In this document: positions 8,582 to 43,471 of the stretch, piece after piece
How the letters are laid out: each line of letters opens with the position of its first letter
Numbering within the stretch: position 1 is the first letter of the stretch
NCBI GenBank assembly: GCA_021157965.1
Contig: JAGGVO010000057.1
Location: 1 to 64,000 of the forward strand
Length of the DNA stretch: 64,000 nucleotides
Direction of reading: 5' to 3'
DNA from: Candidatus Neomarinimicrobiota bacterium
GTDB lineage: Bacteria > Fidelibacterota > Fidelibacteria > Fidelibacterales > Fidelibacteraceae
Notes under the pieces: model-generated
What the model saw: the letters and a program-made list of their open reading frames with translations, nothing else
The model's database searches: none
What the model was told of the DNA's origin: nothing
Position numbers and translations under genes: made by a program

Positions 8582-8644
8582 AGTGCTCCCCTGTTGTTTC
8601 AACGGGCAATTTTACAAGTTAATCATAAATATTCCAATATCGGA

Positions 8645-22231: not shown

Positions 22232-22342
22232 TATTTACTCCCAGTATTTTTCAAATTCAATATTGCTGAACTCAAGCTGTTGAACGTACATAAAATGTAA
22301 TTCAAAATCAACAATACAGAAATAAAAAAATGCATAAAAAAT

Positions 22343-22368
22343 AAAAAGCCCCGTGTCCGGGGCTTTTT
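22343..22368 (-). terminator. Terminator at the end of the TonB receptor/PorV locus
   Basis: AAAAAGCCCC, a six-base loop and GGGGCTTTTT form a symmetric hairpin that can work in both directions. It lies 18 bases after the last minus-strand gene of the locus. Confidence 0.8.
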
Positions 22369-22386
22369 ATCAAGACATAAATCTGC

Positions 22387-23685
22387 TTACTTAAGCAGAG
22401 TCATTTTCCGTGTAATGGACTGGCCGTCGACTGTCAGTCTGTACAGATAGGTACCGGAAGCGACATTTGAGCCATTCCATGTAGAGGTGTAGTCACCGGC
22501 TTCACGATAACCATCCACCAGAGTTTCAACAAGTTTACCATTCACATCATAGATGGAGAGGTTCACATTTGCACCGGCAGTGAGGTTGAAGTTGATTGTA
22601 GTGGCGGGATTGAAGGGGTTGGGATAGTTGGCTTTCAGTGTAAAGGATTTCGGTCCGAAAACACCTTCCGTTTCCCAAATACCTTCTCCTGACTTCACAA
22701 ACTTATAGATACCATTGTTATCCCAGGTGTTGAAATAGGTAACGTATGCCGTATTTTCATCGGCAAATGCAATACCACGAGGCAGAGCCGCGCCACCTGC
22801 AGTTTGTAATGTGTCAGGAATTAATGAATCAACGACTGTTTTTGTTGTCGGATCCCAAGCCACATGTCCGTTTGCCGGAAATCCAACACTAGAGGGATGC
22901 ACACCCATCCAGAGCAGTCCATCGGGAGACCAATTCGCAGATTCAACCAGCAATCCCGGAATTGTGTCAATCTGGGATGTGTAATCACCATCAAGCCCGT
23001 CGTCACTGTGGAAAATAATCACGCCCGATCCGGTAAAACTGTAGAAATAGATATCGTTCGCATCGGGAGAGACTTCAATTGTCCTGGAGTAACCGGAAGT
23101 CAGGTCACCGGGAACCACGTCATCAATCAGGAATCCATCGGGATCAAAAGCTTTGATGGGGTTACCGCCTGCAACAACCATATTCAGGAAGTAGTTACCT
23201 TCTGAATCCGTAGCAACTTTGGTAATAGAGTTTTCACCGAATGGCTGTTTTACAATCATTTTTGTTGTAAAATCATCCTTGCTTACAATGTAATATGTAT
23301 CATACATACAGACAATCACATCGCCATCAGGATTGGTATCCATACCGCGCATTGAATACCAGAAAGTATCCACTTCATAGCCAAAGTAGCTTTCGGAAGG
23401 ATCCAGGGGACCAAAAGTTTTCACGGTTGTTTCAAGGGTTCCATCCGGATTGAAAACTTTAATTCCCCGGCAGGCTACAAAACTGTCTGCAGGAGCCGGC
23501 ACATAGATAGAGTCCATAGCATAGTATGAACAATACCATATCCGGCCGTTTCCGTCTACAGCAATACCCTGTCCGTAGGACACAACAGAATCAGGACCTG
23601 CAGGAAACATCGTCCCGCTATCCCATCCCGCGAAAGCCATGGTAGCTGCGAGCAAAACAGCAACAACAACTAACATTTTTTTCAT
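22387..23685 (-). CDS. Secreted beta-propeller-like protein with T9SS C-terminal sorting domain
   Basis: A protein of 432 residues with a clear signal peptide (MKKMLVVVAVLLAATMAFAG). The central 300 residues show repeated GNGRIWYCS, NPDGDVIVCM and SEGNYFLNM-type strands typical of NHL/SMP-like beta-propellers. The last 80 residues are a textbook type A sorting domain: NYPNPFNPATTINF, LSIYDVNGKLVETLVDG, GTYLYRLTVDG and a KMTLLK end. The T9SS removes such domains and attaches or releases the protein at the cell surface. AAGGAG precedes the ATG. It is the last gene of the large minus-strand surface locus. Confidence 0.9.
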   Translation of the reverse strand: MKKMLVVVAVLLAATMAFAGWDSGTMFPAGPDSVVSYGQGIAVDGNGRIWYCSYYAMDSIYVPAPADSFVACRGIKVFNPDGTLETTVKTFGPLDPSESYFGYEVDTFWYSMRGMDTNPDGDVIVCMYDTYYIVSKDDFTTKMIVKQPFGENSITKVATDSEGNYFLNMVVAGGNPIKAFDPDGFLIDDVVPGDLTSGYSRTIEVSPDANDIYFYSFTGSGVIIFHSDDGLDGDYTSQIDTIPGLLVESANWSPDGLLWMGVHPSSVGFPANGHVAWDPTTKTVVDSLIPDTLQTAGGAALPRGIAFADENTAYVTYFNTWDNNGIYKFVKSGEGIWETEGVFGPKSFTLKANYPNPFNPATTINFNLTAGANVNLSIYDVNGKLVETLVDGYREAGDYTSTWNGSNVASGTYLYRLTVDGQSITRKMTLLK

Positions 23686-23723
23686 CTCGTTCTCCTTTTT
23701 TGGTTAACCTTTTTTCTTTATTC

Positions 23724-25028
23724 TTATGGACGTCCGTAATAAGGCGCTCCATTTACATCCAGACTGACACGAATCAGCCGCGGTGTAGGTGCATTATCAT
23801 CTGTCCTGTCACTTCTTCTGACCATATACAGTTTATTATCATTTCCAAATGCCATATGTACAGCCTTTGTAGAAAGGGCGGGATTCGGATAGTTATAAAT
23901 TGCTTTTGCGGAACCGTCGCTCAGATTGACGTGAACCAGAGGAACGCCATCATCCGCTCCGCTGACAAAAGCATTACCATTTTCATCGAGAACCATAAAG
24001 ACAGGTGTCGTATCATCAAATCCCGTATCTTTCCAGTCTACAACGAGTGATTTGGCACTGACAACACCATTTGCCTGAATATCATGTTTATAAATACCAT
24101 ATTCTGCAATCGTTGTATCAGAACCGGTATATTCAGCCAGCGTATAAATTTCACTGTTAAAGACTTTCAAGGAATGAACGATATAATCTTCATAAACATC
24201 ATTTTCAACAATAGTGGCACCATCGGTTAAAAGAGCAAAAAGATTATTGGTATTACCTGCTGCATAAAGGATTCCACTGGCATCCCAATCAATAGCATAC
24301 ACCCTGCCGCCAAACGCAATGCCGGTTTGTCGAGAACCACCACCAGCCGGGAAGTAATATAATTTTGTATAATTTCTGGCATACACAAGGTCACCGTTAG
24401 GTGCAAATTTCAAGTCAGTCATATTATTATGACTACGGTCTGCATAGATAATCATGGAATCATGCTTCGTCGGCATGAGTTTATATACATTCCCGTCTTC
24501 TGAGGTTACATACACATTCTCATCCTTATCCACAGCGACGGCCAGGGGAAGTATTTGATCAGAGAAGGCACCATATTCCACAGCCGGTTTTTCCAGGGTA
24601 TAAGGAATAAAATTTCCATCTTCATCCATATAATTACCAAAAAGGTAGGCTCCCTGGACTGCAATACGCACTTTCACGGAATCCATGGACCACTGGGCAG
24701 GATCCTTAATAATCACCGGTGCATACACCGCCATTTTTTGGGGGCTGGCCGTCAGATCCGTTTCAGCCGGTTCGGGAAAGCCAATGCCTTCATTAAAGAA
24801 GACCACATTTTCAGAAATATTTTCGGAAAAATTCTCTCCGTATATTTCCACAAGGCCTACTGCCTGGAATGAATTCAAGGCCGGATTGACCTCAGTAATC
24901 ACGGGAGTGGGTTTTCCGGGATCATTCGGATCAAAAGCACTATCCGGATAATCTGTATCCTCACATCCTGTCACACCAAACATTGCAACCAGCAAAGTCA
25001 GCAAGCCCAGTATTAATCCCTTCTTCAT
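23724..25028 (-). CDS. Surface lipoprotein with IPT/TIG domain and beta-propeller-like region
   Basis: A protein of 434 residues. I start it at the ATG at 25028, where AAGGAG lies seven bases upstream and the protein opens with a lipoprotein signal ending in VTGC. Residues about 40-135 form an IPT/TIG (immunoglobulin-like) domain: PVITEVNPALNSFQAVG and IYGENFSE. The rest is propeller-like, with NHL-type strands such as AVAVDKDENVYVTSEDGNVY and DLKFAPNGDLVYARN. SusE/F-like surface binding proteins often share this lipoprotein-plus-Ig build, but I see no ligand evidence. It has its own consensus promoter. Confidence 0.8.
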   Translation of the reverse strand: MKKGLILGLLTLLVAMFGVTGCEDTDYPDSAFDPNDPGKPTPVITEVNPALNSFQAVGLVEIYGENFSENISENVVFFNEGIGFPEPAETDLTASPQKMAVYAPVIIKDPAQWSMDSVKVRIAVQGAYLFGNYMDEDGNFIPYTLEKPAVEYGAFSDQILPLAVAVDKDENVYVTSEDGNVYKLMPTKHDSMIIYADRSHNNMTDLKFAPNGDLVYARNYTKLYYFPAGGGSRQTGIAFGGRVYAIDWDASGILYAAGNTNNLFALLTDGATIVENDVYEDYIVHSLKVFNSEIYTLAEYTGSDTTIAEYGIYKHDIQANGVVSAKSLVVDWKDTGFDDTTPVFMVLDENGNAFVSGADDGVPLVHVNLSDGSAKAIYNYPNPALSTKAVHMAFGNDNKLYMVRRSDRTDDNAPTPRLIRVSLDVNGAPYYGRP

Positions 25029-25047
25029 CTTTAGTCTCCTTCGCGTA

Positions 25048-25076
25048 ATATTAGTATCATTCTTATCAAATGTCAA
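25048..25076 (-). promoter_or_regulatory. Consensus-type promoter before the IPT lipoprotein gene
   Basis: On the minus strand TTGACA (six of six), a 17-base spacer and TAATAT (four of six) lie 19 bases before the start codon, with AAGGAG in between. The gap to the upstream PorV gene is 77 bp, much longer than the other gaps in this locus. Confidence 0.55.
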
Positions 25077-25105
25077 TTATTAATAGTTTATCATGCGTAC
25101 ATGGA

Positions 25106-26107
25106 TTAAAATCCAAAGCCAAGGGTGATCCGCTGCACATAATCAAACACTCCAAAAGGCGTATATGCATAATTAAAGGAAAAACCGAATTTCTGAAGTC
25201 CGACTCCAACGGTAAAATCCCGTTCGTCACTGTTCATCATATAGCCGCCTCTAAGATAGAGCGTTTTCATAAAGGCGTATTCAATGCCCAGATTAACCTG
25301 TTCGGGATAAGATCGCGGATGGGTAACATCCGCAAAAAACCAGAGTTCCTGCCCTTTGGGTTTTTCAGGCATCAAATCCAGTAAGTCCATGGTAATGCCA
25401 ATGGTAAAGGTCAGAGGAAGTTGAAAGTTTTCCCTTTCGAAGTTTATTTCTTCGGAAAAATTTTGGAAAGTCATGCCGAATGCCAGGCTTTTAAAACCGG
25501 TTTTAAACTGGGTTCCAAAATCAAAGGATGTGGCATTTGCAAGATTTTTCTTCACTTTCAGGCTGTCTGCATCGGGGACAATGCTTTTTCCCAGTTGTTG
25601 TCCGGAATACTTGATGCTGCCACCTACGGAAAACTTGTCTGAAAGGGCAACAGCGTAACCGATACCGGCAGCAAAAGCGGAGGGATACATGATTTCCGTA
25701 TCCACATAGCCTTGATCATTTTGCCAAGGGAGTGTTCCCTGGACTTCGCCATAATCCACTGATTGAGCTGTCAGTCCGAAAACACCCATACGTCCGTCTC
25801 CGGGTCGGAATGCGAGGGCATAGGTATTGTGCTGGATATTATCAATCCACTGATTCTGACTGGCTGTCAATTCAATCGTCTTATCGGACCTTGCCATTCC
25901 GGCCGGGTTGAATAAGAGAGAATTCACGCCATTTTCCAGCGTCGTGGCTGCATTCCCCAATGCACTGCTTCGGGCATCATTCGTGACGCTCAAAAACTGA
26001 AATCCGGTCTGCCCCAATTTTTTATTTTCAGCATGAAGACCGGAAATCATGCAGAACATGAGAATGATTCCAAGGCAGTGTTTCAGATGAATATGTTTAC
26101 TTATCAT
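25106..26107 (-). CDS. PorV/PorQ family outer-membrane protein (module 2)
   Basis: A protein of 333 residues with a signal peptide ending near GLHAENKK. The N-terminal block KLGQTGFQFLSVTNDARSSA, followed by SLLFNPAGMA and VDYGEVQGT, is the signature of the PorV/PorQ (UPF0164) family. The rest alternates amphipathic strands ending in Phe (TLGFGF), as expected of a 14-strand barrel. PorV in the T9SS binds sorting domains and hands cargo to the sortase. The paralogue at 31573-32559 shares the same blocks. It lies 5 bp after a candidate T9SS cargo gene. Confidence 0.88.
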   Translation of the reverse strand: MISKHIHLKHCLGIILMFCMISGLHAENKKLGQTGFQFLSVTNDARSSALGNAATTLENGVNSLLFNPAGMARSDKTIELTASQNQWIDNIQHNTYALAFRPGDGRMGVFGLTAQSVDYGEVQGTLPWQNDQGYVDTEIMYPSAFAAGIGYAVALSDKFSVGGSIKYSGQQLGKSIVPDADSLKVKKNLANATSFDFGTQFKTGFKSLAFGMTFQNFSEEINFERENFQLPLTFTIGITMDLLDLMPEKPKGQELWFFADVTHPRSYPEQVNLGIEYAFMKTLYLRGGYMMNSDERDFTVGVGLQKFGFSFNYAYTPFGVFDYVQRITLGFGF

Positions 26108-26112
26108 GATGC

Positions 26113-28299
26113 TTACCTGACAATAATAATTTTACGGGTTGCCGTTTCGCCTTTTCGATACAATATATCGCCGGTAACGGGATCCTCCTGATCTTCTGTC
26201 ACTTCAAAGTGGGCAATATAAATACCGCTGACAACAACCTGGCGGGAAGAACTCAGGGATTTCCAGGTTTCATCACCGCTTCCGTCGTCGTGAACAATCG
26301 TTTCAATCAAATCACCCCGTTCGGAGAAAATCCGGATGATACAATTTCCCGGAATATTCAGGAACATGATTTTATCATCTTCTCCTGTATATTGAAGTTG
26401 TTCCGCCCGGATATTGAAGGGATTGGGAACAACCCGGATATCCTTCAGATTTTCTCCGGCCTGGCGTTTCAGGTAGGCCGGTTCAGTGGTTTTCGTATAA
26501 AACCGTGTGCTTTCCAGAGGTCCGGTTGGATTATATATCCCGTCATTATTCCGGCTTCCATCGCTGTAAGCCGTAATATAGTAATAGTATGAAAATCCTC
26601 TTGCAGGACTTTCGTCATAATACTGTTGGGTCCCCGCGGGCACTTCTGCAATCAAATCGAAAATGGTATCGGGTTTGCTAATAGCCCGGTAAATCCGGTA
26701 TCCGGCAAAATTGGACTCTCCTTCATCGGGCGATGGTGTCCAGATAAGATCTATCCGGTCACCTTTTGATTCTACATTAAACACTTCCGGAGGTCTGGGG
26801 GGCTGGGGGATCTGAAATCCTGAGCTATAATTCCTCAAAGCCCTGCTCATAGTCAGGAGAAAAGAATCCCGACCGGTAAAGACCCACGTATTTTTAAAGA
26901 CGTCTTTGTCATCTGTTGTAGATCCGTTTGGGAGGGTAAAAGGACCCTTGTCATTGGGATCCATATAAGCCTGTTTCCAGCGGCGACCGATCTGTTCGCA
27001 CATTGGCCGGCTTAACCCGTTAATTGCTTCCACTTCAACGATTTTTACAGAATCTCCCGGTGGAATATCAAATGGTCCATAGGTAATCCAGACATTTGTT
27101 CCGCCGCCGTCTCCATGAACTGTTGATGGGTCAACTCTGTCCGTAATTGACGTGACGTTATCTTCATAGAAAAGATTTCCGCCCCCTTTGCCTGTACCAC
27201 CGTAAGGTTGGCCAGAAAGATATTGGTAGGCAATGACCATTTTATCTTCATCGGCCGGCTTCACATCACCGGTTGAAGGATAGGTATCTCCGGCATGCCA
27301 ACCCAGCATGGTTGGTTGATTCGGGTCATCACTATGATCCGATGCCGATTTATCCACATGCAGTACGCCGGTACCCACAAAATGGGGCGCTGTCAATCTT
27401 CCGTCCCGGCTTGCATAAGGACCGCCCACATTATCAAAAGCCCAGCCATCCACCTGGCCCAGAAAGGAATAGCCACACCGGATCCATTCCAGTTGATCAA
27501 TAGGAGTAGATTCGGTTAATGTAGAAATATTTGAATGATAATCCGTATAGGGCATGGCACCGGGATCCCCGGCTTTGAACCGACTTCGGCTCACCCAGGA
27601 GTGTTTCCCCCAGGTAATAGCACCTGTTATTGCATATCCGGCTTCCCGGCTGCACTGATAACGTGTTCCCCAACCGACTCTCAAACCTTTGATGGTTTCA
27701 TTCAAAACACGGACACTGTCGTATCCGACATATCCCGTATTGGTAAAAACCAGCTCTTTGATGAAGTAGTTATCATGATACTGCTGGCTGAAAGCATGGA
27801 CACGCATGGTCATCGTAATGCCGGCAGTTGTGTTTACAATATTCTCAACGACCCTGTCAGCAATCTGATTGGGGTTTATGGCATCCACATCCCCTTCATA
27901 AGGGGCTGTCAGGTTGTTCCCGTCCACATACACAGTCGGTGAGGGAAATTTAGCCGTTTGTCTTAAACGCACCGGAAAAAGAGAAATATCCACATTCCCC
28001 AGAGTAATATATGAAGCCCATTTTTCCCATTCATAACCGGCTGCATCCGTAAATTCATCGACACCAATCCAGGCTCTCTGAATAACATCATTATCCTGGT
28101 ACAGGTAATCTGCCGGCCAGATCATGCCCTCGTAGTAGACATTGTTCCATGCCCGCTTTCCGAAGTATGCATTGAAGTGCGTTTGCAGGGATCCTATTCT
28201 GACATACCGCCTGTCCGTTGCCGAAACCTGACTCAGGGCGTGTCCGGACAGACATACAATCAGAAAAAGAAGTGCGAAAGTTTTTAAGGTATATTTCAT
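26113..28299 (-). CDS. Large surface protein with FN3-like domain and T9SS-like C-terminus (module 2)
   Basis: A protein of 728 residues with a signal peptide (ending near GHALSQ). Residues 25-490 form an unrecognised beta-rich region. A fibronectin-III-like domain follows at about 495-600 (PPEVFNVESKGDRIDLIWTP, then NFAGYRIYRA). The C-terminus runs VVPNPFNIRAEQLQY, MFLNIPGNCIIRIFSERGDL, VVSGIYIAHFEV and KIIIVR, which resembles a sorting domain. The 759-residue protein at 33364-35643 has the same order of blocks, including the WVFTGRDS or WVYTGRDS motif. It sits between its own TonB receptor and PorV genes. Function unknown; surface display is the best inference. Confidence 0.82.
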   Translation of the reverse strand: MKYTLKTFALLFLIVCLSGHALSQVSATDRRYVRIGSLQTHFNAYFGKRAWNNVYYEGMIWPADYLYQDNDVIQRAWIGVDEFTDAAGYEWEKWASYITLGNVDISLFPVRLRQTAKFPSPTVYVDGNNLTAPYEGDVDAINPNQIADRVVENIVNTTAGITMTMRVHAFSQQYHDNYFIKELVFTNTGYVGYDSVRVLNETIKGLRVGWGTRYQCSREAGYAITGAITWGKHSWVSRSRFKAGDPGAMPYTDYHSNISTLTESTPIDQLEWIRCGYSFLGQVDGWAFDNVGGPYASRDGRLTAPHFVGTGVLHVDKSASDHSDDPNQPTMLGWHAGDTYPSTGDVKPADEDKMVIAYQYLSGQPYGGTGKGGGNLFYEDNVTSITDRVDPSTVHGDGGGTNVWITYGPFDIPPGDSVKIVEVEAINGLSRPMCEQIGRRWKQAYMDPNDKGPFTLPNGSTTDDKDVFKNTWVFTGRDSFLLTMSRALRNYSSGFQIPQPPRPPEVFNVESKGDRIDLIWTPSPDEGESNFAGYRIYRAISKPDTIFDLIAEVPAGTQQYYDESPARGFSYYYYITAYSDGSRNNDGIYNPTGPLESTRFYTKTTEPAYLKRQAGENLKDIRVVPNPFNIRAEQLQYTGEDDKIMFLNIPGNCIIRIFSERGDLIETIVHDDGSGDETWKSLSSSRQVVVSGIYIAHFEVTEDQEDPVTGDILYRKGETATRKIIIVR

Positions 28300-28311
28300 A
28301 GTTCAGCTCTC

Positions 28312-31300
28312 TTAAAAGACGATTTTAATTCCAAATTTTACCGCTCTGGGATTGGCAAAGGTGTTGAACCTGAGATTCGGCATATCAATATATGCTTTAT
28401 CTTCCAAAGCTTTCTTTGCTTTATTGGAATCTATTTTTTGCCATACTTCAATCATATTTCCCGGATTATTTGGATCTTCAATTTCTACACGTTGTACAAA
28501 ACGGTCGGTTTTTGATATATCATCAGGGGATGAAAAGAGTTCGGGAAATTCTTCAACCAATGCATTGGTATTTCCAATGTAATACCAGGTTTTATCCGCA
28601 TTGATATCATCAGTGATATTTTCCAGATACCTCATGGGTTGAAATTCCGTATTCCAATCACGGTAAACACCGAGATTATCCTCTCCGGGAATACCGCCGA
28701 TTCCAAGATCCTTATAAACCTGGTCGTCAAAGTGGAGAGATTCGCGATAATCATTATAATCATAGGTATTGGCAATACCATTATAGCTGAGGAATTTTGT
28801 ATTCAGAAGATTTGTCACATCCATATAGAGCTGTAGTTTAAATTTTTCAAAACTCATGGATTTCGTCAACCTGAGATTCAGGTTATAAGTATCCACCCAT
28901 TTTACATTGTTTGTAAGGCCTACGACCCCTGTTGGATTCCAGGTTGACTGGCTTCCGGCGTTCCAGGTAAAAAGGAAACTGGCATCCCAGCCGCCTGCAG
29001 GATAAACTCTCCCCACTGCCGGTCCGAACTGATCTGGGGTATGGAGGTCAATATTCGCCCTGGCATAGGGTCGGGGATGGGGTTTTTCCTGGTAGGGGTT
29101 ATCCCTCAGATAGGCCCGCATGGCATTGGGATCCTGATAGTAGCGCCGATAACCGAACCATCCGTAAGAGCGCACCATGTATGTATAGTTTACAAAACCT
29201 GTAATCCAGGTTCCCCAGCGTTTATCCAGTGTGAGCTCGATACCGCGGATATCTTCATAGTTATTATTGTCGGTTATCGAATAGCGGACAGAACTATTAA
29301 TATTCTGATATGTAATCCAGCCCACCTGATCGGTCACATCTTTATAGTATGCCGCAATATTCACCAGGAACATATCAAGAAGGTTTTGTGAATAACCAAT
29401 CTCATAAGCAACTGTCTTTTCAAAATTCAGATTGGGATTTCCGATGGATGTTACGAGTCCGTTATATTCTCTTTGCAGACGGAAACGGTGGGTAGATTCT
29501 GGTTCAGAGCGAAAGTGCCCATAATTGAAATAGAGCTTTGAATTTTCCGTAATGGGATGGGAAATACCAAGGCGCGGACTCAGGGCAAAGGCCGGTTTGG
29601 AATCTTCCCGGGGAGCTTCTTCTTCAATGAGATGCCCTTCACCCTGTTTGAAAAAGTCGTCATAGGAATCGAGAAGGTATTTATCGGTATTGGCATCGGA
29701 ATAGTCAAGCCTGAAACCAATATTCGCGATAAATCCTTCAAATTCCATTTTATCCTGAACATAAGCTCCGATTCGATAGGGGTAAACCTGGTAAATTTGT
29801 TCACGGTTCCAGGTGGTCATACCCGGATTAGACGTAAAAGATTTGATATCATAGTCATTAAGAACAAACTCAAAACCGGTACGAATCTGATTAGATCGGT
29901 TAATTTGATTTGTATAATCATACCGGGCAGAATAAGTGGTAACCACTGAATTGTCCCGGCCAAGGTTCATCCATCCGCCGGTACGGATGTTATCCCCAAT
30001 AGAGCCGGTTCCATAACCCCAATATCCATAAGGGGTCTCATCCATAAAATATCCGGGGAAAACTTCAACCGTTTTGGAAGTATCCCGAAGTTCTCCCTGA
30101 AATGTATTATAGATATTCTTATTCATCTGAAGGGTTACTTCATAATAGGAATCAGAATTGATGATATGGTTAAGTTTGGCTCCGAAAATAGTCCGGTAAA
30201 TGGAAGCGGGGCTGTAATAATAGGGTACGTAGAGTGATTCCTTGGTTTTAGCCAGACTTGCCAGGGTATAGGACGAACGGACCACATCTCCAGTGGGAGT
30301 CGTTGTCCAGTTATAAGTAGAGGAGGAATGGATTTCTCCATACATCCCTGTTAATGTCAACTTTGTAGCGTCTGAAATATCGGAAGTCAGTTTTAAGCGG
30401 CCGATATTTTCTGAATAGGCATCTCTTGAAAGAGGTATATAGAACATTTCCTGGAGATCGCGGTAGGATAGATTGAACCGCAAATCACCCAGCTTTTTGC
30501 CAATAACCGGCACAGGACCGCTAAAAGAAAAATCTCCTACATAATCCGGTTTTTTAATGTCACCCTGGCGTCTGTGGTTATAGCGATACACACGCTGGGC
30601 GCCTGTAGGTGAAAGATCATTGTCCGGATTATCATCAGACAATGTTTCCTGGGATATGGCAATCCATCCTTTAAAAGAAGGGTATTGACGCCGGGTGAAA
30701 CGGTCCCACGGTTCATACCCGTTTTCCGGATCAGGATCCGTTCCATACCAGCACACGTCATCATCAAGATAGGGTCTGTTATGATAGGACATGGGATCAT
30801 AGGGAGAAATACCGAAATGTTTCGGAGCTGCCGGTTTATATTGAAAAGAAAGAGAACCATTGTAAGAAGATTTGCTTCCTTCACTGGTCACGATATTAAT
30901 CACACCGGAGCGGATATTTCCGTATTCTGCGTTGAATCCTCCTGTTTGGACCTGTACTTCCTTTACAGTGCTCAAACTGACAGAGGAATAGGGGTTATTG
31001 GACCGTTCATCGTTCATGACAATTCCATCCACAATAAAAGATGTTTGTCTTGAACTGCCTCCCCGGATTGTCAGTCCCTGGGCACCTGCCTGGAGTCCGA
31101 TCACGTCTGTTACTTCATTAATGGGTAGGGACTCAATTTTTTCAGAATTAATATTCAGCTGGCTGTTGGAAATATCCCGGACCACGACCGGCATTTCGGC
31201 AACAACCACCACTTCGGACATGCCCACCGCCTGTGTCCTCAAGGTCACATCAATAATAGTTGTCAGTCCCATGTTTACATTAACATTCCGGATGGTGACC

Positions 31301-31560
31301 TTTTCATATCCAATCATTGATACGGATAATTCATAGGTTCCCGGAGGAACATTCAGAATGGAATAATACCCATTTTCATCCGTAGCAGCCCCCAGCATGG
31401 TCCCCTCAACAATCACATTAACACCCGGCAGGGGATTACCGGCTTCATTGGTGACTTGACCTGCAATTTTTCCTGACTGGGCTGCATGAGATAAAACAGG
31501 CAGTAACAGAAGTCCCGCCAGGGTAAGCAAAACTATTGTTTTATTGAAAATCCTGCTCAT
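28312..31560 (-). CDS. TonB-dependent receptor with carboxypeptidase-regulatory N-terminus (module 2)
   Basis: A protein of 1082 residues. A signal peptide (to about HAAQSGK) is followed by a CarboxypepD-reg-like domain (about 30-115; GQVTNEAGNPLPGVNVIVEG, GYYSILNVPPGTYELSV). A plug domain (about 130-235) has SLPINEVTDVIGLQAG, IVDGIVMNDERS and SGGFNAEYGNIRSGVINIVT. A long outer-membrane barrel completes it. This is a SusC-like build, but no SusD is nearby. GAGGAG lies seven bases before the ATG. It probably imports or binds a large substrate at the surface with the FN3 surface protein encoded 12 bp downstream. Confidence 0.92.
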   Translation of the reverse strand: MSRIFNKTIVLLTLAGLLLLPVLSHAAQSGKIAGQVTNEAGNPLPGVNVIVEGTMLGAATDENGYYSILNVPPGTYELSVSMIGYEKVTIRNVNVNMGLTTIIDVTLRTQAVGMSEVVVVAEMPVVVRDISNSQLNINSEKIESLPINEVTDVIGLQAGAQGLTIRGGSSRQTSFIVDGIVMNDERSNNPYSSVSLSTVKEVQVQTGGFNAEYGNIRSGVINIVTSEGSKSSYNGSLSFQYKPAAPKHFGISPYDPMSYHNRPYLDDDVCWYGTDPDPENGYEPWDRFTRRQYPSFKGWIAISQETLSDDNPDNDLSPTGAQRVYRYNHRRQGDIKKPDYVGDFSFSGPVPVIGKKLGDLRFNLSYRDLQEMFYIPLSRDAYSENIGRLKLTSDISDATKLTLTGMYGEIHSSSTYNWTTTPTGDVVRSSYTLASLAKTKESLYVPYYYSPASIYRTIFGAKLNHIINSDSYYEVTLQMNKNIYNTFQGELRDTSKTVEVFPGYFMDETPYGYWGYGTGSIGDNIRTGGWMNLGRDNSVVTTYSARYDYTNQINRSNQIRTGFEFVLNDYDIKSFTSNPGMTTWNREQIYQVYPYRIGAYVQDKMEFEGFIANIGFRLDYSDANTDKYLLDSYDDFFKQGEGHLIEEEAPREDSKPAFALSPRLGISHPITENSKLYFNYGHFRSEPESTHRFRLQREYNGLVTSIGNPNLNFEKTVAYEIGYSQNLLDMFLVNIAAYYKDVTDQVGWITYQNINSSVRYSITDNNNYEDIRGIELTLDKRWGTWITGFVNYTYMVRSYGWFGYRRYYQDPNAMRAYLRDNPYQEKPHPRPYARANIDLHTPDQFGPAVGRVYPAGGWDASFLFTWNAGSQSTWNPTGVVGLTNNVKWVDTYNLNLRLTKSMSFEKFKLQLYMDVTNLLNTKFLSYNGIANTYDYNDYRESLHFDDQVYKDLGIGGIPGEDNLGVYRDWNTEFQPMRYLENITDDINADKTWYYIGNTNALVEEFPELFSSPDDISKTDRFVQRVEIEDPNNPGNMIEVWQKIDSNKAKKALEDKAYIDMPNLRFNTFANPRAVKFGIKIVF

Positions 31561-31572
31561 AAGGATACTCCT

Positions 31573-32559
31573 CTAGAGAGATACTCTCAGGGTAAATCTC
31601 TGAATATCGTCAAATGTTTTCATGGGGGTATAACTGTAATCAAAAATCATCCCGAAGGCATTCAGGCCAAATCCAAAACTGGATCCACTTTCATCCCGAT
31701 TTTGTTCGAAACCGTAGCGAAGGAAGAATTTCCTTACAAAACTGTATTCAATACCCAGGTTCAGGTATTCGGGATAAGACCTGGGGTGAGCCCAGTCTAC
31801 ATAGATATCCACATTATGATTTGGCATTTCAACGGGAATAAAATTCATCAGATTCGCTGTTATCCCAATAGAGAAGGTAAGGGGCAACTGGAAACTTTCA
31901 TCGATGTATTTTATCTCGTTGGAGAAATTCCGGATCGTCATACCAAACTTGACATCCCGGAATCCCGTATTGAACAGGGTACCGAAGTCCATAGCTACAG
32001 CATTAGTTTTATATTTTTGGGTAATCAGACTGTCCGTCATTTGCACATTGCTCTTTCCAAACTGTTGGGCTGTATACTTTAACTGTCCGCCAATAGAGAA
32101 TTGTGCGGACAGAGCTTTAGCATATCCAACACCCAAGAGCATAGCCGAGGGGTTAAATATATGGGTATCCACATATCCCTTATCATTGGACCAGACCATG
32201 GTCCCCTGCATTTCGCCGTAATCCACCACATGAGCCGTAACACCGATAACCCCGTATTTATTTTGAGACGGATTCAGAGCCAGGCTGAATGTATTGTGCT
32301 TGATATCGGCAATCCAGGTATTTTGACTTGCCATGGCGTCGATTCTTGAAGACATATTGGCCATAGTCGCCGGATTGTAGAACAAAGACGCGGAACCCAT
32401 TTCCACAGTGGTCATGGCTCCCGCCAGTGCCGCTGCCCGGGCATCTGAATTCACGGACAGGAACTGATAACCGGTTTGAGCCAGTTTCTTTTCGGCGCCT
32501 GTCGCAAATGATGCACATAAGAACAGCAGAGCTAGCACACATGCTGTATATTTTCTCAT
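31573..32559 (-). CDS. PorV/PorQ family outer-membrane protein (module 1)
   Basis: A protein of 328 residues with a signal peptide ending near SFATGAEKK. It shares the blocks KLAQTGYQFLSVNSDARAAA, SLFYNPATMA, VDYGEMQGT and HPRSYPEYLNLGIEYSF with the paralogue at 25106-26107, so the two derive from one duplication or represent one family expanded in this locus. A perfect GGAGGAA ribosome site lies eight bases before the ATG. PorV-type proteins act as shuttles for T9SS cargo. It lies between the lipoprotein gene and the module-2 TonB receptor. Confidence 0.88.
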   Translation of the reverse strand: MRKYTACVLALLFLCASFATGAEKKLAQTGYQFLSVNSDARAAALAGAMTTVEMGSASLFYNPATMANMSSRIDAMASQNTWIADIKHNTFSLALNPSQNKYGVIGVTAHVVDYGEMQGTMVWSNDKGYVDTHIFNPSAMLLGVGYAKALSAQFSIGGQLKYTAQQFGKSNVQMTDSLITQKYKTNAVAMDFGTLFNTGFRDVKFGMTIRNFSNEIKYIDESFQLPLTFSIGITANLMNFIPVEMPNHNVDIYVDWAHPRSYPEYLNLGIEYSFVRKFFLRYGFEQNRDESGSSFGFGLNAFGMIFDYSYTPMKTFDDIQRFTLRVSL

Positions 32560-32578
32560 TGTATCTATTCCTCCGGAG

Positions 32579-33340
32579 TTATTTATTAATAATCACTGTG
32601 TTATAAGAATTCCCCAGTGTTTGTTCCAGTTTCTGAATTCCAACGAGGTATGATTTTCCTGACTGAAGTTCATAAACGTACCTGGATTTAACAACAGGCT
32701 GAGCCACCCGGTTGGCAATGGTAAAGATCCCGGATGACAGCTCAAGTGGAATCGTTTTATCCAGAATTTCAAGGGGCTCTTCGGATACTTCCAAATCATA
32801 CACATGTGTCCGGATATAGTCATTAAAGTAAAAAACAACCTCTCCGGTATTCACTCCTTCAAGGACAAAATAAGTCGTGTCGGAGCTGGCCGGGGAAATG
32901 GTTTTTGTGTAAGTGGTGACTTCTTCAATGACTTCACTGGTATCAATGGTAAATGTTGTATCATTAACAAAAGTAGTATCATAGGCAAGCAGTGTATCAA
33001 TACGTGTCAGAAGTTCATTGGCTGTAAAAATGTAAGCATCTGTTGGAGGATAGATTACTGTATCCGCAGCCAGTGTATCTACATAAACCAATGTATCATC
33101 AAGTGTCAGAATGGTATGGAGAAAGTCAAGGCTCAGGTTGTCCGGATTACTATGTAATTTAACAGTACCACTCAGTGCTTTGTTAATGGTCGTCCTGTAC
33201 GATGTAGCGGCTGACGCATCATAAGGTTCCATCTCATAGGTTTCATCTTCGAAATCATTCAAGACATCGCAGCTGCTCATAAAGGCGAGTGTTGCGATAC
33301 TTATGAGCAGAACCAATTTCATCATGGGATTTTTATTCAT
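32579..33340 (-). CDS. Lipoprotein of unknown function
   Basis: A protein of 253 residues. I start at the ATG at 33340, where GAGGAG lies seven bases upstream; an earlier ATG falls inside that site. A lipoprotein signal ends in the lipobox FMSSC near residue 24. The mature part is rich in Thr and Asp, with many short TTF, DTSE and DTL strands, and has no domain I recognise. Placed between the FN3 surface protein and PorV of module 1, it is probably a surface-exposed accessory lipoprotein. Function unknown. Confidence 0.75.
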   Translation of the reverse strand: MNKNPMMKLVLLISIATLAFMSSCDVLNDFEDETYEMEPYDASAATSYRTTINKALSGTVKLHSNPDNLSLDFLHTILTLDDTLVYVDTLAADTVIYPPTDAYIFTANELLTRIDTLLAYDTTFVNDTTFTIDTSEVIEEVTTYTKTISPASSDTTYFVLEGVNTGEVVFYFNDYIRTHVYDLEVSEEPLEILDKTIPLELSSGIFTIANRVAQPVVKSRYVYELQSGKSYLVGIQKLEQTLGNSYNTVIINK

Positions 33341-33363
33341 TTTTAATCTCCTCATATTCTCTA

Positions 33364-35643
33364 TTAGCGAATCACTACAAATTTACGGTAGGTCATATTG
33401 CCGTCGGGATCCTCGAAAGTTGCAATATATACACCGCTCACCACAATCTGCCGTGAGGATGTAATCAGATCCCAGCGCCGGTCACCGCTTCCAGAATGAT
33501 CCATTTCATAAATCAGGTCTCCCCTTTCCGTAAAAATTTTAATTTTACATTCATTGGGAAGGTTCACAAACATAATTTTATTCGGTTCACCGGCATATTG
33601 GTAATTTATATTCGAAATATTATAGGGATTCGGCACTACCCGGATTTCACTCATATCTTCAGACGGTGGTTTCTGCAGTGTAGCAGCTGTATTGGTACGG
33701 GTCAGATGGGGACTACTATATAAGGGTACGCCGGGTTCAATGGTGTTCCGGCTTCCGTCATCATAGGAGATAATGAAATAGTAATAGCTTTGCCCACGGA
33801 CAGCTGTATAGTCGAAAAATTCGTTGGCAAGATTACCATCGGTTTTATTAAGGTCCGCAATTTCGATATAGGTGGAATCCCAACGATCCCCCTGGGCCCG
33901 GTAAATTTTATAGCCTTCAAACCAGGCCTCTGCTTCGTCTTCGCTGGCTTGCCAACCCAGAGCAATCCGGTTCCCCTGGGAAGTCACTTCAAAGTATGAT
34001 GGGGCAGCCGGAGGATATTCATTTCCAAGATCGAGTCCCTTATTCCGATAAAGGTCTATCGCCCGCCGAAAAGCCTGAACAATGGAATCCCTGCCGGTAT
34101 ACACCCATTTATTTTTATACTCGTCAGCTTTGTCTACCGTGCTGACGGTTTCCGTTGATCCATCAGGAAATGTAAGTGTTTTTGTTTTACCGTTCTTGAC
34201 CACATCATACCAGTTCCTGCCGACTTCAGCCCGGATATCCCCTTCACGTCCGAAGAGAGAACGACCGAGTCCGCCGGCTGCTTCAGCCCAGACAATCTTC
34301 ACGCTTTCACCAGGAGCAAGGCGATAGGGACCAAAAGCCATGGTCTGTGAATAACCGCCTGCGGGGTTCTGCCATTCATCGGGATTGGCAAACCCGACCT
34401 GCATGGCATGACTTCCGGCAATCGGATGGCCTACATCCAGAAGATTCAGGTATTCATTCTGCATCCGGGTCGCGCTGAACTGATCGTTGGGTTGAGTTTC
34501 CACAGCATTTGATTCAACGTAAGGCGTACTGGCCGGCTGGTAAATATCATCAATAGGCTCAGAGGGAGATTTATCTGCATGAATGGTCACGGCTCCCATA
34601 TACTGCCAGGCGCCCAAACGTCCGTCCGGTGCATACCCGCGGTAGTTTGGTGACCCAATATTATCATAGATATCTCTCAATTCGCTGTGATACCCATGCC
34701 AGCTGACATAACACCGCATAATATTTTCCGGAGTTACACCGGCATTTGGATCAATGAGTTTGTCCACACCAGTTTGAGTGTCTAAAATGGTTGATGTATA
34801 TCGATCGTCCGATTCGTAGTCATTGGCAAAATTGGGTTTATCCGGTTTAGTGCCCAGGACATCGTTCATAGTGTTGATTCCCCAGCGCATATCACGGGGA
34901 GTATTCCAACCCGGGCGTCCATACCAGTCACTGGCCGCAGCGGTTTCTACGGTTCCTTCACCAGCTATGGCATTTCTGAATTGCCAATGAAAATAAACTC
35001 CTTCCAGAGTTCTGTTATCGTCAAAAGTATCGCCGTTGATGTTCCAGATGCCCGTATTGGTAAATGTGTACTCGTAGATAAAGAAATTATCCATGTACTG
35101 TTGAGTATAGGCATAAATTTTACGGGTAAAAGAGATACCGACTGACGTATTACATTCATTATAGATCATCCTGTCCGCAGGAAGAGTCAGATCCAGTTCA
35201 TCCACCTGATCATCGTAAAAGAGATCAGATGCAACGGCTCCGTCAACCAGAACAGTTGGCGCGTTATAGCGGGCAACCATTTTCAATTCAACAGGCATAA
35301 TCTCATTTGTTTCCGATCCGGATACGGGACGTGGACCTGTGTGCACCACTTTGTATGGGTAGACCTGATTTGCGATGGGGTCGTCAAAGTCTTTGACACC
35401 AATCCAGATTGCTTTGGCAGCCTGCATATCCTGGTGATCAAACCAGGCCGGCCACCGGAATCCAAATTGTTGTTCAGATCCGTAAGCTTCTTCAGGTTCA
35501 GATCCGTGTGCCTGATAAAAATTATGCAGATTACCCACCTTAATCCACCTGGCTTCAACCTGTGCTTCAGCCGTCACCGTCAAGCCAAGGAACAGAAAGA
35601 CCAGTATGAGTCCTGTCCAAATTTTTGAAGTTCTATTCATCAT
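33364..35643 (-). CDS. Large surface protein with FN3-like domain and T9SS-like C-terminus (module 1)
   Basis: A protein of 759 residues, a paralogue of the 728-residue protein at 26113-28299. A signal peptide (ending near TAEAQVEA) leads into WIKVGNLHNFYQAHG, matching VRIGSLQTHFNAYFG in the paralogue. Later blocks are the aligned WVYTGRDSIVQAFRRA, an FN3-like domain (FEVTSQGNRIALGWQASEDE) at about 535-640, and a C-terminus VVPNPYNISN, CKIKIFTERGDL, VVSGVYIATFED ending KFVVIR. That end fits a T9SS sorting domain. Product function unknown. It is encoded 33 bp after its TonB receptor. Confidence 0.82.
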   Translation of the reverse strand: MMNRTSKIWTGLILVFLFLGLTVTAEAQVEARWIKVGNLHNFYQAHGSEPEEAYGSEQQFGFRWPAWFDHQDMQAAKAIWIGVKDFDDPIANQVYPYKVVHTGPRPVSGSETNEIMPVELKMVARYNAPTVLVDGAVASDLFYDDQVDELDLTLPADRMIYNECNTSVGISFTRKIYAYTQQYMDNFFIYEYTFTNTGIWNINGDTFDDNRTLEGVYFHWQFRNAIAGEGTVETAAASDWYGRPGWNTPRDMRWGINTMNDVLGTKPDKPNFANDYESDDRYTSTILDTQTGVDKLIDPNAGVTPENIMRCYVSWHGYHSELRDIYDNIGSPNYRGYAPDGRLGAWQYMGAVTIHADKSPSEPIDDIYQPASTPYVESNAVETQPNDQFSATRMQNEYLNLLDVGHPIAGSHAMQVGFANPDEWQNPAGGYSQTMAFGPYRLAPGESVKIVWAEAAGGLGRSLFGREGDIRAEVGRNWYDVVKNGKTKTLTFPDGSTETVSTVDKADEYKNKWVYTGRDSIVQAFRRAIDLYRNKGLDLGNEYPPAAPSYFEVTSQGNRIALGWQASEDEAEAWFEGYKIYRAQGDRWDSTYIEIADLNKTDGNLANEFFDYTAVRGQSYYYFIISYDDGSRNTIEPGVPLYSSPHLTRTNTAATLQKPPSEDMSEIRVVPNPYNISNINYQYAGEPNKIMFVNLPNECKIKIFTERGDLIYEMDHSGSGDRRWDLITSSRQIVVSGVYIATFEDPDGNMTYRKFVVIR

Positions 35644-35676
35644 GTATTTCCTTTTCTTTTCATTACCTTCTTCTTT

Positions 35677-38600
35677 TTAGAAATCATAAGAAATCCGGAT
35701 GCCAAGAAAGATATCCCGGGGAGCCAGGAAAAGAAATGACTCATTCACAGGATTGAAAATATAGGCTTTGTCATCCAGAACTTTTTGGACTGTACTCTTT
35801 TCAACACGAGTCCACTCGTTATTCACATACTGTACATACCGTTCCGTATCAGAAATATTTTCCGAAATATTTTCATCGGGGAAGAGTTCCTGAAGATCAG
35901 CTACGTCACCCACATAGTAATAAACATTGGGGTCGGGCTGAGTGAGTCCGGAAGCACGGGATGTATATTTCAGCGGCTGATAGGGAACACTCGGATCGCG
36001 GTAGTAACCCATCTTATCGTCGCCGGATATGTGCCTGAGTCCTAACTCTTCATAGACACTTTCATTAAAATGCAGGGACTCCTGATACATATCATAAACA
36101 CCCGGGACGAGATAAGAATCACCCAGAGCGGCAGTGGACAGCGATTTTTTGTTCAGGATATTATATATATCGGCAATTACCTGGATTCTAAACTGGTTCA
36201 GAGAAATGGTTTTTGAACCACGCATATCCAGACCCCAGCTATCCACCCAGCGCACATTGTTGATAATGGAGGGGTTGTTTCCAAAGGTATGATAATTACC
36301 CTTCCGCCATGTACCGGTGAAAGCAATCTGCCAGTTGGCAAGGGGTGCCAGTCCGCCCATTTCCGGGCCGAAATAGTGAGGAGTTCTAAAAGAAATATTG
36401 TATTTGATCCTGGGCAGAGCCACAGGTTTATACTGTTTCTGGAGATTGATATTCCGTTCGGTGTCGCGCTGGACAGCCGGGTTTTCATTCTGGGATTTAA
36501 CACCGAAGTTCCCGGATGAATACACGGAGTATTCATAATTCACAAACCCTGTAACCCAATCACCGATCCGTTTTCGGAGTTCAACTTCAAGTCCCCGGAT
36601 ATCCTGATACAACAAGTTACTATACTGATAATAATCCACAACACCTCCAACGCCCTGATAACGGACTGTGGTGGCCTGATCGGATTTATCTTTATAATAC
36701 GCTGCAATATGGATCAGGTACTTATCAAAGAGAGAGTGATCATAACCCAGCTCATAAGCAATGGTTTTTTCCATGGGGAGTTCCGGATCGCCCAAATAGG
36801 AAAGTGATCCACCATAGACACGACGAATTCCAAACAACTCTGACGGTGAAAACCGTTGTCTCATGTGTCCGTAATTAAAGTAAAGTTTTGAATCAACGGT
36901 AATGGGATGGGATATACCAATACGGGGCATGAGGGTAAAAAGACCTTTTGCCCGTCTCATCGGAAGATTATCTTCATCTGTCACTTCTTTGGATGCAACC
37001 GTTTTTATCGTTCTGTCAAAGGGTTCAAAATCAAACCAGTCTGTATTTGGATTAAAATATTCGCCCCTCAAACCAACCGTTGCAACCCATCCTTCGAATT
37101 CAAGCTTATCCTGTATATAGGCACCGACCTGCCAGGGAGATTTTTTCCAATCCGTCCATGGACGTCCGGCTGGCAGGGCTGGGTTGATAGCACCATAGTT
37201 CATGTCATAGTTGAAATATTCAAACTGGACGCCGGTTTTAATCTGGTTATTCTGATTGATCTGCGAGATAAAGTCCCACCGGGCTTTGAATGCCCATGTT
37301 TTGGTAGAATCCCGGGCATTGCTTTTGGCACCCATCATATATCCGTCAATACTTTTTGTTAGGTCCGTATCAAATCCCCAGGGTGCTTCATCCACCAAAT
37401 ACTGGTCTTCACTTTCTGCTCCCGGCAGAATGTTATACCGTGGCGTAAAATCCCGGGGCTCAGCAGGACCAGTCAGATATTCGGTAGACCTGTATTCAAA
37501 CAAAGCCTCATGATAAGATTTTCCGCTCAATTGATGAGTCAGCTTTGCAGAGAAAACATCACTCCAAATTTGGGTCTCACAATAGTAGTGAGGATAAAAG
37601 ATTTTTGACCGTTGCTGAGAACGGCTGCCAAAAGCACCGGCAACTCCCCAAATTGTTGAAGAGAAATAGGAAGGAAGTCCCGTTTCACTGGCCGAAGAAG
37701 CATCGGTCTTTTTGTGAAAACCTGTCAGTTGAAGTTTAATTCTCTCTGTGATATCTGAAGTCACTTTTGTTGATAATGACCATTCTTCATAAGCATCTCT
37801 GGATAAAGGCACCATGTACATGTCTTTTTCCTTCCGGAAAGAGGCATAGAACCTGAGATTGCCCAGATATTGACTGACAAAGGGAACCGGTCCGCCCAGT
37901 CCCATATCAATATTGTAATCCGGTTCGGTGATATCACCCTGACGGCGATGCTGCCATTTAAAAATCTGTTGGGCACCGGTAGGTGTTATATCATCGCTGG
38001 GATCATCGTTGGCCAGGCGGTCACTGGCGAGTGCATTCCATCCCTGAAAGGCCGGATACATTTTCCGGGTATATTCATCCCAGGGATTGTAGTATTCTCC
38101 GTCACCATTCCGGTCATTAAAGGGTTCACCAGGATCCCAATATCCATCCTTATTCAAATCTTCAAATGTCTCGGGTGCCGTTCCCCACCATGCAACATCA
38201 TCATCCATCCAGGGACGCATATATATTGAATTGGGATCGTAAATAGACATACCGAAATGTTTCGGGGCAGCAGGACTGTATTTGAATGTCCCGTCAAATG
38301 AGTATTTATCTACATGACCTTCTTTCGTCACCACGTTGATCACACCGGCCTGGAGGTCGCTGTATTCCGCATTGAAACCACCGGATTGGATCATGATTTC
38401 CTGGACGGAGCTCAAAGGCACACCGGAAACTGGCTGACCGGTCCGGTCATCTTTCATGGACACACCATCCATCATATATGCCAGCTCGTCGGTTCCACCC
38501 CGGCGAACTTCGAGTCCGCTCACACCGGCCTGCATACCAATGACATCCTCCACGCTGGTGGCCGGTAAATCTTCTATCTGCTCGGATCCCAGGTTGGTCT

Positions 38601-38979
38601 GACTGGAAGCCACATCCACACGCATAACTTTCCGCTCAGCAACAACTGTCACCGTTTCCCCCTGAAAAGCCTGGGGTTTTAAGGCAAAATTCACCTGAGT
38701 TGTCAAATCAATTTCCACCCGGGCTCCGGATTGAGTCAACGTGGCATATCCCACATAAGAAGCAGAAACTGAATAGACACCGGGCGGCACGTTAAGGATT
38801 ACATAAAATCCATCCTGATTTGCCGCAGCACCATAAACAGTCCCTTCTACAATCACATTGGCTCCCGGTAAAGGATTACCGTTCTGGTCCGTTACTGTCC
38901 CCATAATCTTACCCGATGTCCGTCCATAGGCAAGACCGAACAGCATTGTAAGCGCTAGTAAACCTCTCAACAATTTCAT
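35677..38979 (-). CDS. TonB-dependent receptor with carboxypeptidase-regulatory N-terminus and acidic metal-binding-like insert (module 1)
   Basis: A protein of 1100 residues. A signal peptide (to about AYGRTSG), a CarboxypepD-reg-like domain (about 24-110), a plug (about 125-235; AYMMDGVSMKDDRTG) and a barrel follow, as in the receptor at 28312-31560. At residues 274-295 it carries an insert with two calcium-loop-like motifs (DLNKDGYWDPGE and NDRNGDGE), absent from the other receptor. AAGGAG lies seven bases before the ATG. It heads the surface locus, so a promoter in the adjacent 338 bp gap may drive the whole block. The substrate is unknown. Confidence 0.92.
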   Translation of the reverse strand: MKLLRGLLALTMLFGLAYGRTSGKIMGTVTDQNGNPLPGANVIVEGTVYGAAANQDGFYVILNVPPGVYSVSASYVGYATLTQSGARVEIDLTTQVNFALKPQAFQGETVTVVAERKVMRVDVASSQTNLGSEQIEDLPATSVEDVIGMQAGVSGLEVRRGGTDELAYMMDGVSMKDDRTGQPVSGVPLSSVQEIMIQSGGFNAEYSDLQAGVINVVTKEGHVDKYSFDGTFKYSPAAPKHFGMSIYDPNSIYMRPWMDDDVAWWGTAPETFEDLNKDGYWDPGEPFNDRNGDGEYYNPWDEYTRKMYPAFQGWNALASDRLANDDPSDDITPTGAQQIFKWQHRRQGDITEPDYNIDMGLGGPVPFVSQYLGNLRFYASFRKEKDMYMVPLSRDAYEEWSLSTKVTSDITERIKLQLTGFHKKTDASSASETGLPSYFSSTIWGVAGAFGSRSQQRSKIFYPHYYCETQIWSDVFSAKLTHQLSGKSYHEALFEYRSTEYLTGPAEPRDFTPRYNILPGAESEDQYLVDEAPWGFDTDLTKSIDGYMMGAKSNARDSTKTWAFKARWDFISQINQNNQIKTGVQFEYFNYDMNYGAINPALPAGRPWTDWKKSPWQVGAYIQDKLEFEGWVATVGLRGEYFNPNTDWFDFEPFDRTIKTVASKEVTDEDNLPMRRAKGLFTLMPRIGISHPITVDSKLYFNYGHMRQRFSPSELFGIRRVYGGSLSYLGDPELPMEKTIAYELGYDHSLFDKYLIHIAAYYKDKSDQATTVRYQGVGGVVDYYQYSNLLYQDIRGLEVELRKRIGDWVTGFVNYEYSVYSSGNFGVKSQNENPAVQRDTERNINLQKQYKPVALPRIKYNISFRTPHYFGPEMGGLAPLANWQIAFTGTWRKGNYHTFGNNPSIINNVRWVDSWGLDMRGSKTISLNQFRIQVIADIYNILNKKSLSTAALGDSYLVPGVYDMYQESLHFNESVYEELGLRHISGDDKMGYYRDPSVPYQPLKYTSRASGLTQPDPNVYYYVGDVADLQELFPDENISENISDTERYVQYVNNEWTRVEKSTVQKVLDDKAYIFNPVNESFLFLAPRDIFLGIRISYDF

Positions 38980-43016: not shown

Positions 43017-43019
43017 AAT

Positions 43020-43463: not shown

Positions 43464-43471
43464 GTATGCTC

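Follow-up and report, generated by a model that had tools for sequence, protein, structure and literature searches.

Nine codirectional genes of a Neomarinimicrobiota genome contain a gene cassette that is real, conserved and undescribed in the open-access literature, and that would join SusCD-like uptake with the anchoring of a surface protein by a barrel cognate to its C-terminal domain (CTD). The genes lie between 38979 and 22387 on the minus strand of contig JAGGVO010000057.1, which belongs to a metagenome-assembled genome of 2.3 Mb (96% complete); the stretch that we analysed, referred to here as the window, comprises the first 64,000 nucleotides of this contig. In our reading, to which we give about even chances, the operon would be a TonB-dependent uptake unit in which a T9SS-exported lid is held by a PorV-family barrel. 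A search of the open-access literature found no earlier description of a cassette composed of receptor, T9SS lid and PorV.

The operon (Table 1) has the order receptor A, surface protein A, lipoprotein, PorV1, receptor B, surface protein B, PorV2, a lipoprotein with IPT and beta-propeller domains, and a beta-propeller protein with a T9SS tail, separated by gaps of 33, 8, 19, 12, 12, 5, about 29 and 38 bp. A first-pass annotation of the window had described two adjacent modules of receptor, surface protein and PorV with short gaps (5 to 33 bp); profile searches recovered both modules, and the gaps between the first seven genes are as it had stated. It had also given the modules the same order. 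Receptor, surface protein and PorV do follow one another in both, but the orders are not strictly identical because a lipoprotein gene sits between surface A and PorV1. Besides the six genes described, the interval holds three more, namely this lipoprotein gene, the gene of the IPT/beta-propeller lipoprotein and that of the protein with a classical T9SS tail. Directly upstream of the cassette region (41443-45019, minus strand) lies a set resembling, by sequence, a decarboxylase sodium pump (OadB-like membrane subunit, biotin carrier, OadG-like protein and carboxyltransferase), and futalosine-type menaquinone genes (VitK2_biosynth and a CofH/MqnC radical SAM protein) are found at 15893-17805 on the minus strand.

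Table 1. Features of the operon and the two amino-sugar genes of the window, with the matches that identify them.
Feature	Coordinates	Strand	Length (aa)	Matches and remarks
Receptor A, TonB-dependent	35677..38979	-	1100	PF13620 1e-19, PF14905 3e-15, Plug 8e-5; class A clade, support 97
Surface protein A	33364..35643	-	759	No Pfam family; PorZ CTD match 1.7e-9; class A clade, support 95
Module-A lipoprotein	32579..33355	-	258	Lipobox SC, two acidic residues in next six (surface-lipoprotein-like)
PorV/PorQ-family outer-membrane barrel 1 (PorV1)	31573..32559	-	328	NF033709 170.8 bits
Receptor B, TonB-dependent	28312..31560	-	1082	PF13620 2e-21, PF14905 1e-14, Plug 1e-7; class B clade, support 98
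Surface protein B	26113..28299	-	728	Same architecture as A; AlphaFold2 model; class B clade, support 100
Variant T9SS CTD of surface protein B	26116..26463	-		Variant-CTD profile 123 bits
PorV/PorQ-family outer-membrane barrel 2 (PorV2)	25106..26107	-	333	NF033709 174.9 bits; 5 bp after surface B
IPT + beta-propeller lipoprotein	23724..25076	-		GCEDTD lipobox, three acidic residues
Secreted beta-propeller protein with classical type A CTD	22387..23685	-		TIGR04183 50.6 bits
Intrinsic terminator	22340..22371	-		Strong; 14-pair stem and T tail, directly 3' of the last operon gene
NamZ (exo-beta-N-acetylmuramidase)	10326..11576	-
MurQ (MurNAc-6-phosphate etherase)	7670..8602	-		E 1e-70

The receptors had been called SusC-like, which is too loose a term: both have an N-terminal CarboxypepD_reg domain, a Plug and a beta-barrel, but they reach 72 and 64.5 bits with the SusC/RagA model TIGR04056, far under its cut-off of 368. 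The reported absence of SusD extends to the whole genome of the window, where a PF07980 search was empty and the positive control matched. With no SusD/RagB lipoprotein lid beside the receptors, the operon falls outside the SusCD systems.

Both surface proteins have lengths close to the 730-760 residues first given and consist of a signal peptide, a super-beta-sandwich N-domain, an FN3 domain, for which profile match and predicted fold agree with the earlier assignment, and a C-terminal Ig-like CTD (about residues 655-759 of surface A). The T9SS-like end that had been noticed is a non-classical variant: the tail of surface A matches the C-terminal domain of PorZ, which is the best profile match of the surface-protein tails and is matched more weakly in other cassettes. 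Within the PorZ model NF052228, only residues 659-757 of surface A match, at 36.7 bits versus a full-length cut-off of 260, and surface A is thus not a full-length PorZ. Neither is the tail a type A CTD by TIGR04183 (surface A: 17 bits, cut-off 23; surface B: no match), and the type B model TIGR04131 matches neither protein; two type A motifs, VVPNP and GxYxxxx, are nevertheless kept in the variant CTD. CTD strands are visible in the model of surface B, and PorZ and PorU CTD profiles match. In the wide sense both proteins are T9SS substrates, having a Sec signal and a C-terminal Ig-like CTD in an organism with SprA and PorU, and because these two components are present in the window's genome, export by the T9SS is well founded. 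Across the phylum, the near-universal SprA exceeds its cut-off in 185 of 199 genomes and the surface family occurs in 140 of 199, and for this reason a presence/absence comparison does not inform on T9SS dependence.

The AlphaFold2 model of surface B (95 sequences) has a mean pLDDT of 92.7 and a pTM of 0.88, and its N-domain modelled alone reaches 95.4 and 0.94, respectively. Foldseek returned FN3 proteins for the whole model and, for the N-domain, the GH94 phosphorylase super-beta-sandwich, dextran dextrinase, galactose mutarotase and the YidC periplasmic domain (E 4e-6), a likeness to glycan-enzyme sandwiches that is weak (TM about 0.35). A SusD fold was not among the matches listed for surface B or its N-domain, and we rejected the notion of a hidden SusD, which neither sequence nor fold supports. 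We also rejected an enzyme, as none of eight further surface proteins from the cassettes has a Pfam family; the GH94-like part of the N-domain would be the non-catalytic sandwich domain. The N-part of the surface proteins also occurs in far longer open frames of about 1550-1630 aa (G045:C121, G093:C57 and G126:C43), and therefore larger variants of the putative lid exist.

PorV/PorQ proteins had been assigned to both modules, and both barrels indeed exceed the NF033709 cut-off of 90 bits, while scoring 76 and 77 bits with the PorV equivalog (NF033710, cut-off 250) and 95 and 69 bits with the PorQ equivalog (NF033711, cut-off 220). The window's genome has eleven PorV-family genes above the NF033709 cut-off, of which one, on contig C12, is the housekeeping PorV candidate (210 bits versus the PorV equivalog cut-off of 250) and ten sit in cassettes, each with a receptor and with one or two surface proteins that carry the variant type of CTD. 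A BamG-like FadL-family protein is encoded on C12 at a distance of about 4 kb from the housekeeping gene (L056:3869-5074; NF053685 134.6 bits, under the cut-off of 250), and a Bacteroidota-type BAM is possible in Marinimicrobiota. The eight further cassettes of receptor, variant-CTD protein and PorV lie on contigs C36, C16, C42, C41, C47, C23, C61 and C4 (loci L012-L019 and L057), and their N-domains are partly unrelated. PPIC-type and SurA-like lipoproteins occur in or beside PorV cassettes (L016:9045-10406 and L017:6596-7990) and are perhaps folding helpers of the secreted partner.

The variant CTD is linked to PorV-family genes. A search of its own genome with surface A returned exactly eleven cassette proteins and no other T9SS cargo. 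With a variant-CTD profile the eleven cassette tails scored 80-140 bits and all others 45 bits or less; the profile was built from ten of the eleven tails, and the eleventh (C23) scored 80 bits unseen. Across 15 genomes of the phylum we listed 119 genes with this CTD, 89 of which are followed by a same-strand PorV-family gene 0-400 bp downstream; a PorV-family gene is found within 3 kb of 99 (chance expectation: about 1%) and within about 10 kb of 116. Distances between CTDs correlate with those between PorVs over the ten own cassettes (r 0.70, p 2e-4), in which the N-domains are partly homologous too.

A somewhat unlikely explanation of this linkage is that the surface proteins are ordinary T9SS cargo, which PorV brings to PorU, where the CTD is cut and the protein is released or linked to LPS; the extra PorVs would then be shuttle capacity, and the receptor a neighbour in the same regulon that makes no contact. 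Classical CTD proteins would also need shuttling, yet in the window's genome not one of 51 genes with a classical tail has a PorV-family gene as its direct downstream neighbour. The genome does have PorU and a housekeeping PorV, PorV copies can be near-identical inside one locus (L115), and the CTD keeps the two type A motifs, all of which suit ordinary cargo, but the variant CTD hardly matches TIGR04183 and, unlike a disposable signal, is the best conserved segment of the surface family (mean column identity 0.57, versus 0.37-0.46 in the N-domain). A role of PorV as shuttle of the surface protein to the sortase, on which the first-pass annotation had drawn, is doubtful because the tail is non-classical, like the uncleaved tail of PorZ.

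The surface-protein family is present in 67 of 76 genera of the phylum, and recurrence of the module in 140 of 199 genomes is well beyond chance. When PorV genes of relatives were called profile-first, before open reading frames, the plan recurred at named loci in Neomarinimicrobiota, KSB1, Calditrichota, Ignavibacteria/Melioribacteraceae and Balneola, in the common form of receptor, surface protein, an optional lipoprotein and PorV, then in some loci a second receptor and surface protein with or without another PorV, and finally the IPT lipoprotein and the beta-propeller protein. An absent or scattered triplet would have spoken against a functional unit, an objection that fails because the modules are conserved units in relatives. 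NusA, IF-2 and TruB families are also among the downstream-gene matches of the loci.

Trees resolved two deep classes, A and B, of the receptor as well as of the surface protein (support 95-100). All adjacent receptor-surface pairs that could be classified (n = 91) were matched, 54 as A-A and 37 as B-B, with 0 mixed, and class matching holds where B precedes A (L097, L108 and L111). Partial correlation of distances was 0.82 between surface protein and receptor given PorV, and 0.12 between surface protein and PorV given the receptor. Each PorV had been thought to serve its paired surface protein, and this inference of the first-pass annotation is not supported in that form. The PorV tree does not track the A/B split; one of the two genes that follow is a PorV in 52 of 58 class A and 13 of 35 class B testable cases; and at locus L115 the two PorVs are 95% identical whereas the surface proteins and receptors are 40% identical, which together rule out strict module-by-module pairing. 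Moreover, the CTDs are alike across classes (identity 0.56 between classes; 0.56 and 0.63 within), in contrast to the N-domains (0.33 between classes; 0.44 and 0.56 within), from which we take the N-domain to be matched to the receptor and the CTD to a shared PorV, as would be expected of a class-specific and a common partner, respectively. This pattern agrees with a receptor-lid pair and contradicts one PorV per partner, and dedication of PorV seems to exist between cassette families and not between modules A and B. Three Neomarinimicrobiota loci (L141, L144 and L148) have a class A receptor/surface pair that is followed by other genes and has no adjacent PorV.

That the receptor uses the surface protein as its lid in place of SusD is supported indirectly, by the 91 matched pairs, the high partial correlation and the absence of SusD, and the contacts between the two would be those of a lid. 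We infer this role from the strict co-inheritance of the pair, from its gene order and from the missing SusD; it is proposed by analogy, because the surface protein is SusD-like in neither sequence nor fold, and co-inheritance of neighbouring genes can come from operon transfer alone. Class B modules are often without an adjacent PorV, which counts against a barrel-held lid and suits a quite unlikely alternative, in which the PorV-family barrel is neither shuttle nor anchor and instead part of the transport complex, as a FadL-like channel for lipids or small molecules. PorV is a member of the FadL superfamily, and in the nine own cassettes for which a receptor sequence is available, distances between PorVs correlate with those between receptors (r 0.92). 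However, PorV linkage follows the variant CTD across different N-terminal domains, and PorV/PorP relatives are known CTD-binding barrels (PMC9143113).

We favour a barrel-held lid, which might operate as follows. The surface protein would leave the periplasm via SprA by means of its CTD. The PorV-family barrel of the same cassette would take it from the translocon and remain on the CTD, so that the protein would evade PorU with its CTD retained and be anchored at the membrane, like PorZ on PorQ or type B proteins on PorP/SprF. Its N-terminal super-beta-sandwich and FN3 part would cap its own receptor as a lid, and TonB would power uptake. Receptor-lid pairs A and B would have interchangeable PorV barrels in common, and the surface lipoproteins and the secreted beta-propeller protein would help. 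The cargo would probably be an amino-sugar glycan, with muropeptides for A and GlcNAc glycans for B.

In 25 of 65 class A loci a member of the module-A lipoprotein family separates the surface protein from PorV; in class B the family was seen once. The IPT/beta-propeller lipoprotein, whose true start is probably the ATG at 25028, comes after the modules in most relatives, and the beta-propeller protein with the T9SS tail has full-length orthologues at the same place in KSB1, Ignavibacteria and Balneola; both are conserved parts of the operon in relatives. In both lipoproteins of the operon the lipobox cysteine is followed by acidic residues, which in Bacteroidota mark surface lipoproteins (PMC12578637).

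Neighbouring genes bear on whether the cassette takes anything up. Sugar kinases, symporters, glycosidases and LacI regulators recur beside it and every module has a complete TonB receptor with plug, both of which argue against the unlikely view that the surface protein is an adhesin or a surface-layer-like component, with receptor and PorV as membrane anchors (compare SprB/SprF with a receptor platform) and no uptake. Such a view would accommodate the FN3 domain and the beta-rich fold with no catalytic family, and type B adhesins share the layout of a gene with a downstream barrel (PMC12618676), but no adhesin repeats were seen in the surface proteins.

If the operon is an uptake unit, the linked genes point to amino sugars. 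GHL10 is found in 9 of 49 downstream genes, several with T9SS tails (class A cassettes; Ignavibacteria, KSB1 and Balneola), and in Cwp19 this domain acts as a lytic transglycosylase (PMC6016235). At locus L135, NamZ, NagX/HGSNAT, NlpC/P60, a BadF-type kinase and a POT transporter lie beside the cassette, GH20 is between or beside class B modules at L143 and L152, and other loci have SSF symporters, GH94, an FGGY kinase or NAGPA. Upstream neighbours, scanned as background, also include sugar genes (GH20, BadF kinase and LacI regulators), and amino-sugar genes adjoin the cassette at some loci of Ignavibacteria, KSB1 and Balneola but not in the window, where NamZ and MurQ are encoded on the strand of the cassette, 11-15 kb off and outside the operon. 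These two genes are near each other, and the organism can probably use MurNAc. Peptidoglycan or amino-sugar debris is our leading, if tentative, guess for the cargo of A and B because of the linked GHL10, NamZ, NagX, GH20 and MurQ genes. Neighbours of further cassettes in the window's genome are GHL10/DUF4985 together with GH13, or SSF together with a peptidase, and include an M3 peptidase and an amidohydrolase; we guess that these cassettes serve other substrates.

Taken more widely, and with confidence somewhat short of even, we suggest a third architecture for TonB-dependent acquisition at the surface, widespread in FCB-group phyla, in which a T9SS-substrate lid with its own CTD class would be permanently docked by a PorV-family barrel, escaping the sortase route, and lineage-specific cassettes would serve different substrates, peptidoglycan debris among them. 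Marinimicrobiota, KSB1, Calditrichota and Ignavibacteria are widely distributed, and most of their members are uncultured. With about ten cassettes per genome and no SusD, this would be a main route for large nutrients and, if true, would replace SusCD in these phyla; GHL10, NamZ, NagX and MurQ, as linked genes, suggest that these cells forage on the debris of bacterial cell walls. Type A CTDs have been described as all using a single PorV (PMC12618676), and the architecture, if true, would overturn the rule that all type A-like tails have one PorV in common. PorV-like barrels have been proposed to shield CTDs from cleavage (PMC10202324), a hypothesis that is directly testable because the cassettes give a large natural set of CTD-PorV pairs.

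Four known systems resemble parts of the cassette. SusCD/RagAB share with it a TonB receptor with an N-terminal extension, a surface partner in the operon, strict co-inheritance and nearby glycan genes; unlike them, the cassette has no SusD homologue or fold, its receptors are far under the SusC/RagA cut-off, its partner is exported by the T9SS and is not a lipoprotein, and a PorV barrel is part of the operon. PorZ delivers anionic LPS to PorU and belongs to the T9SS itself. It is a surface protein that keeps its CTD and is bound to a PorV/PorQ-family barrel, PorQ (PMC10202324), and the cassette tails match its CTD best, whereas the cassette surface proteins differ in their N-domain, are spread over about ten cassettes and come with receptors as partners. 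In BamG-BamH of the Bacteroidota BAM, a FadL-like barrel keeps an extracellular partner on the cell surface (PMC12578637), but there the partner is a lipoprotein and the complex is for outer-membrane protein assembly, not uptake. Besides PorQ-PorZ, the known barrel-held CTDs are those of type B proteins with PorP/SprF (PMC10202324, PMC9143113, PMC12618676). In the type B adhesins (SprB/SprF of F. johnsoniae and PG1035/PorP of P. gingivalis), a T9SS substrate is likewise encoded directly upstream of a CTD-specific FadL-like barrel that anchors it at the surface (PMC12618676, PMC9143113), as the cassette barrel would by binding its CTD; in contrast to these, the cassette barrel is of the PorV/PorQ family, its CTD is a relative of type A and not of TIGR04131, and a TonB receptor is encoded upstream.
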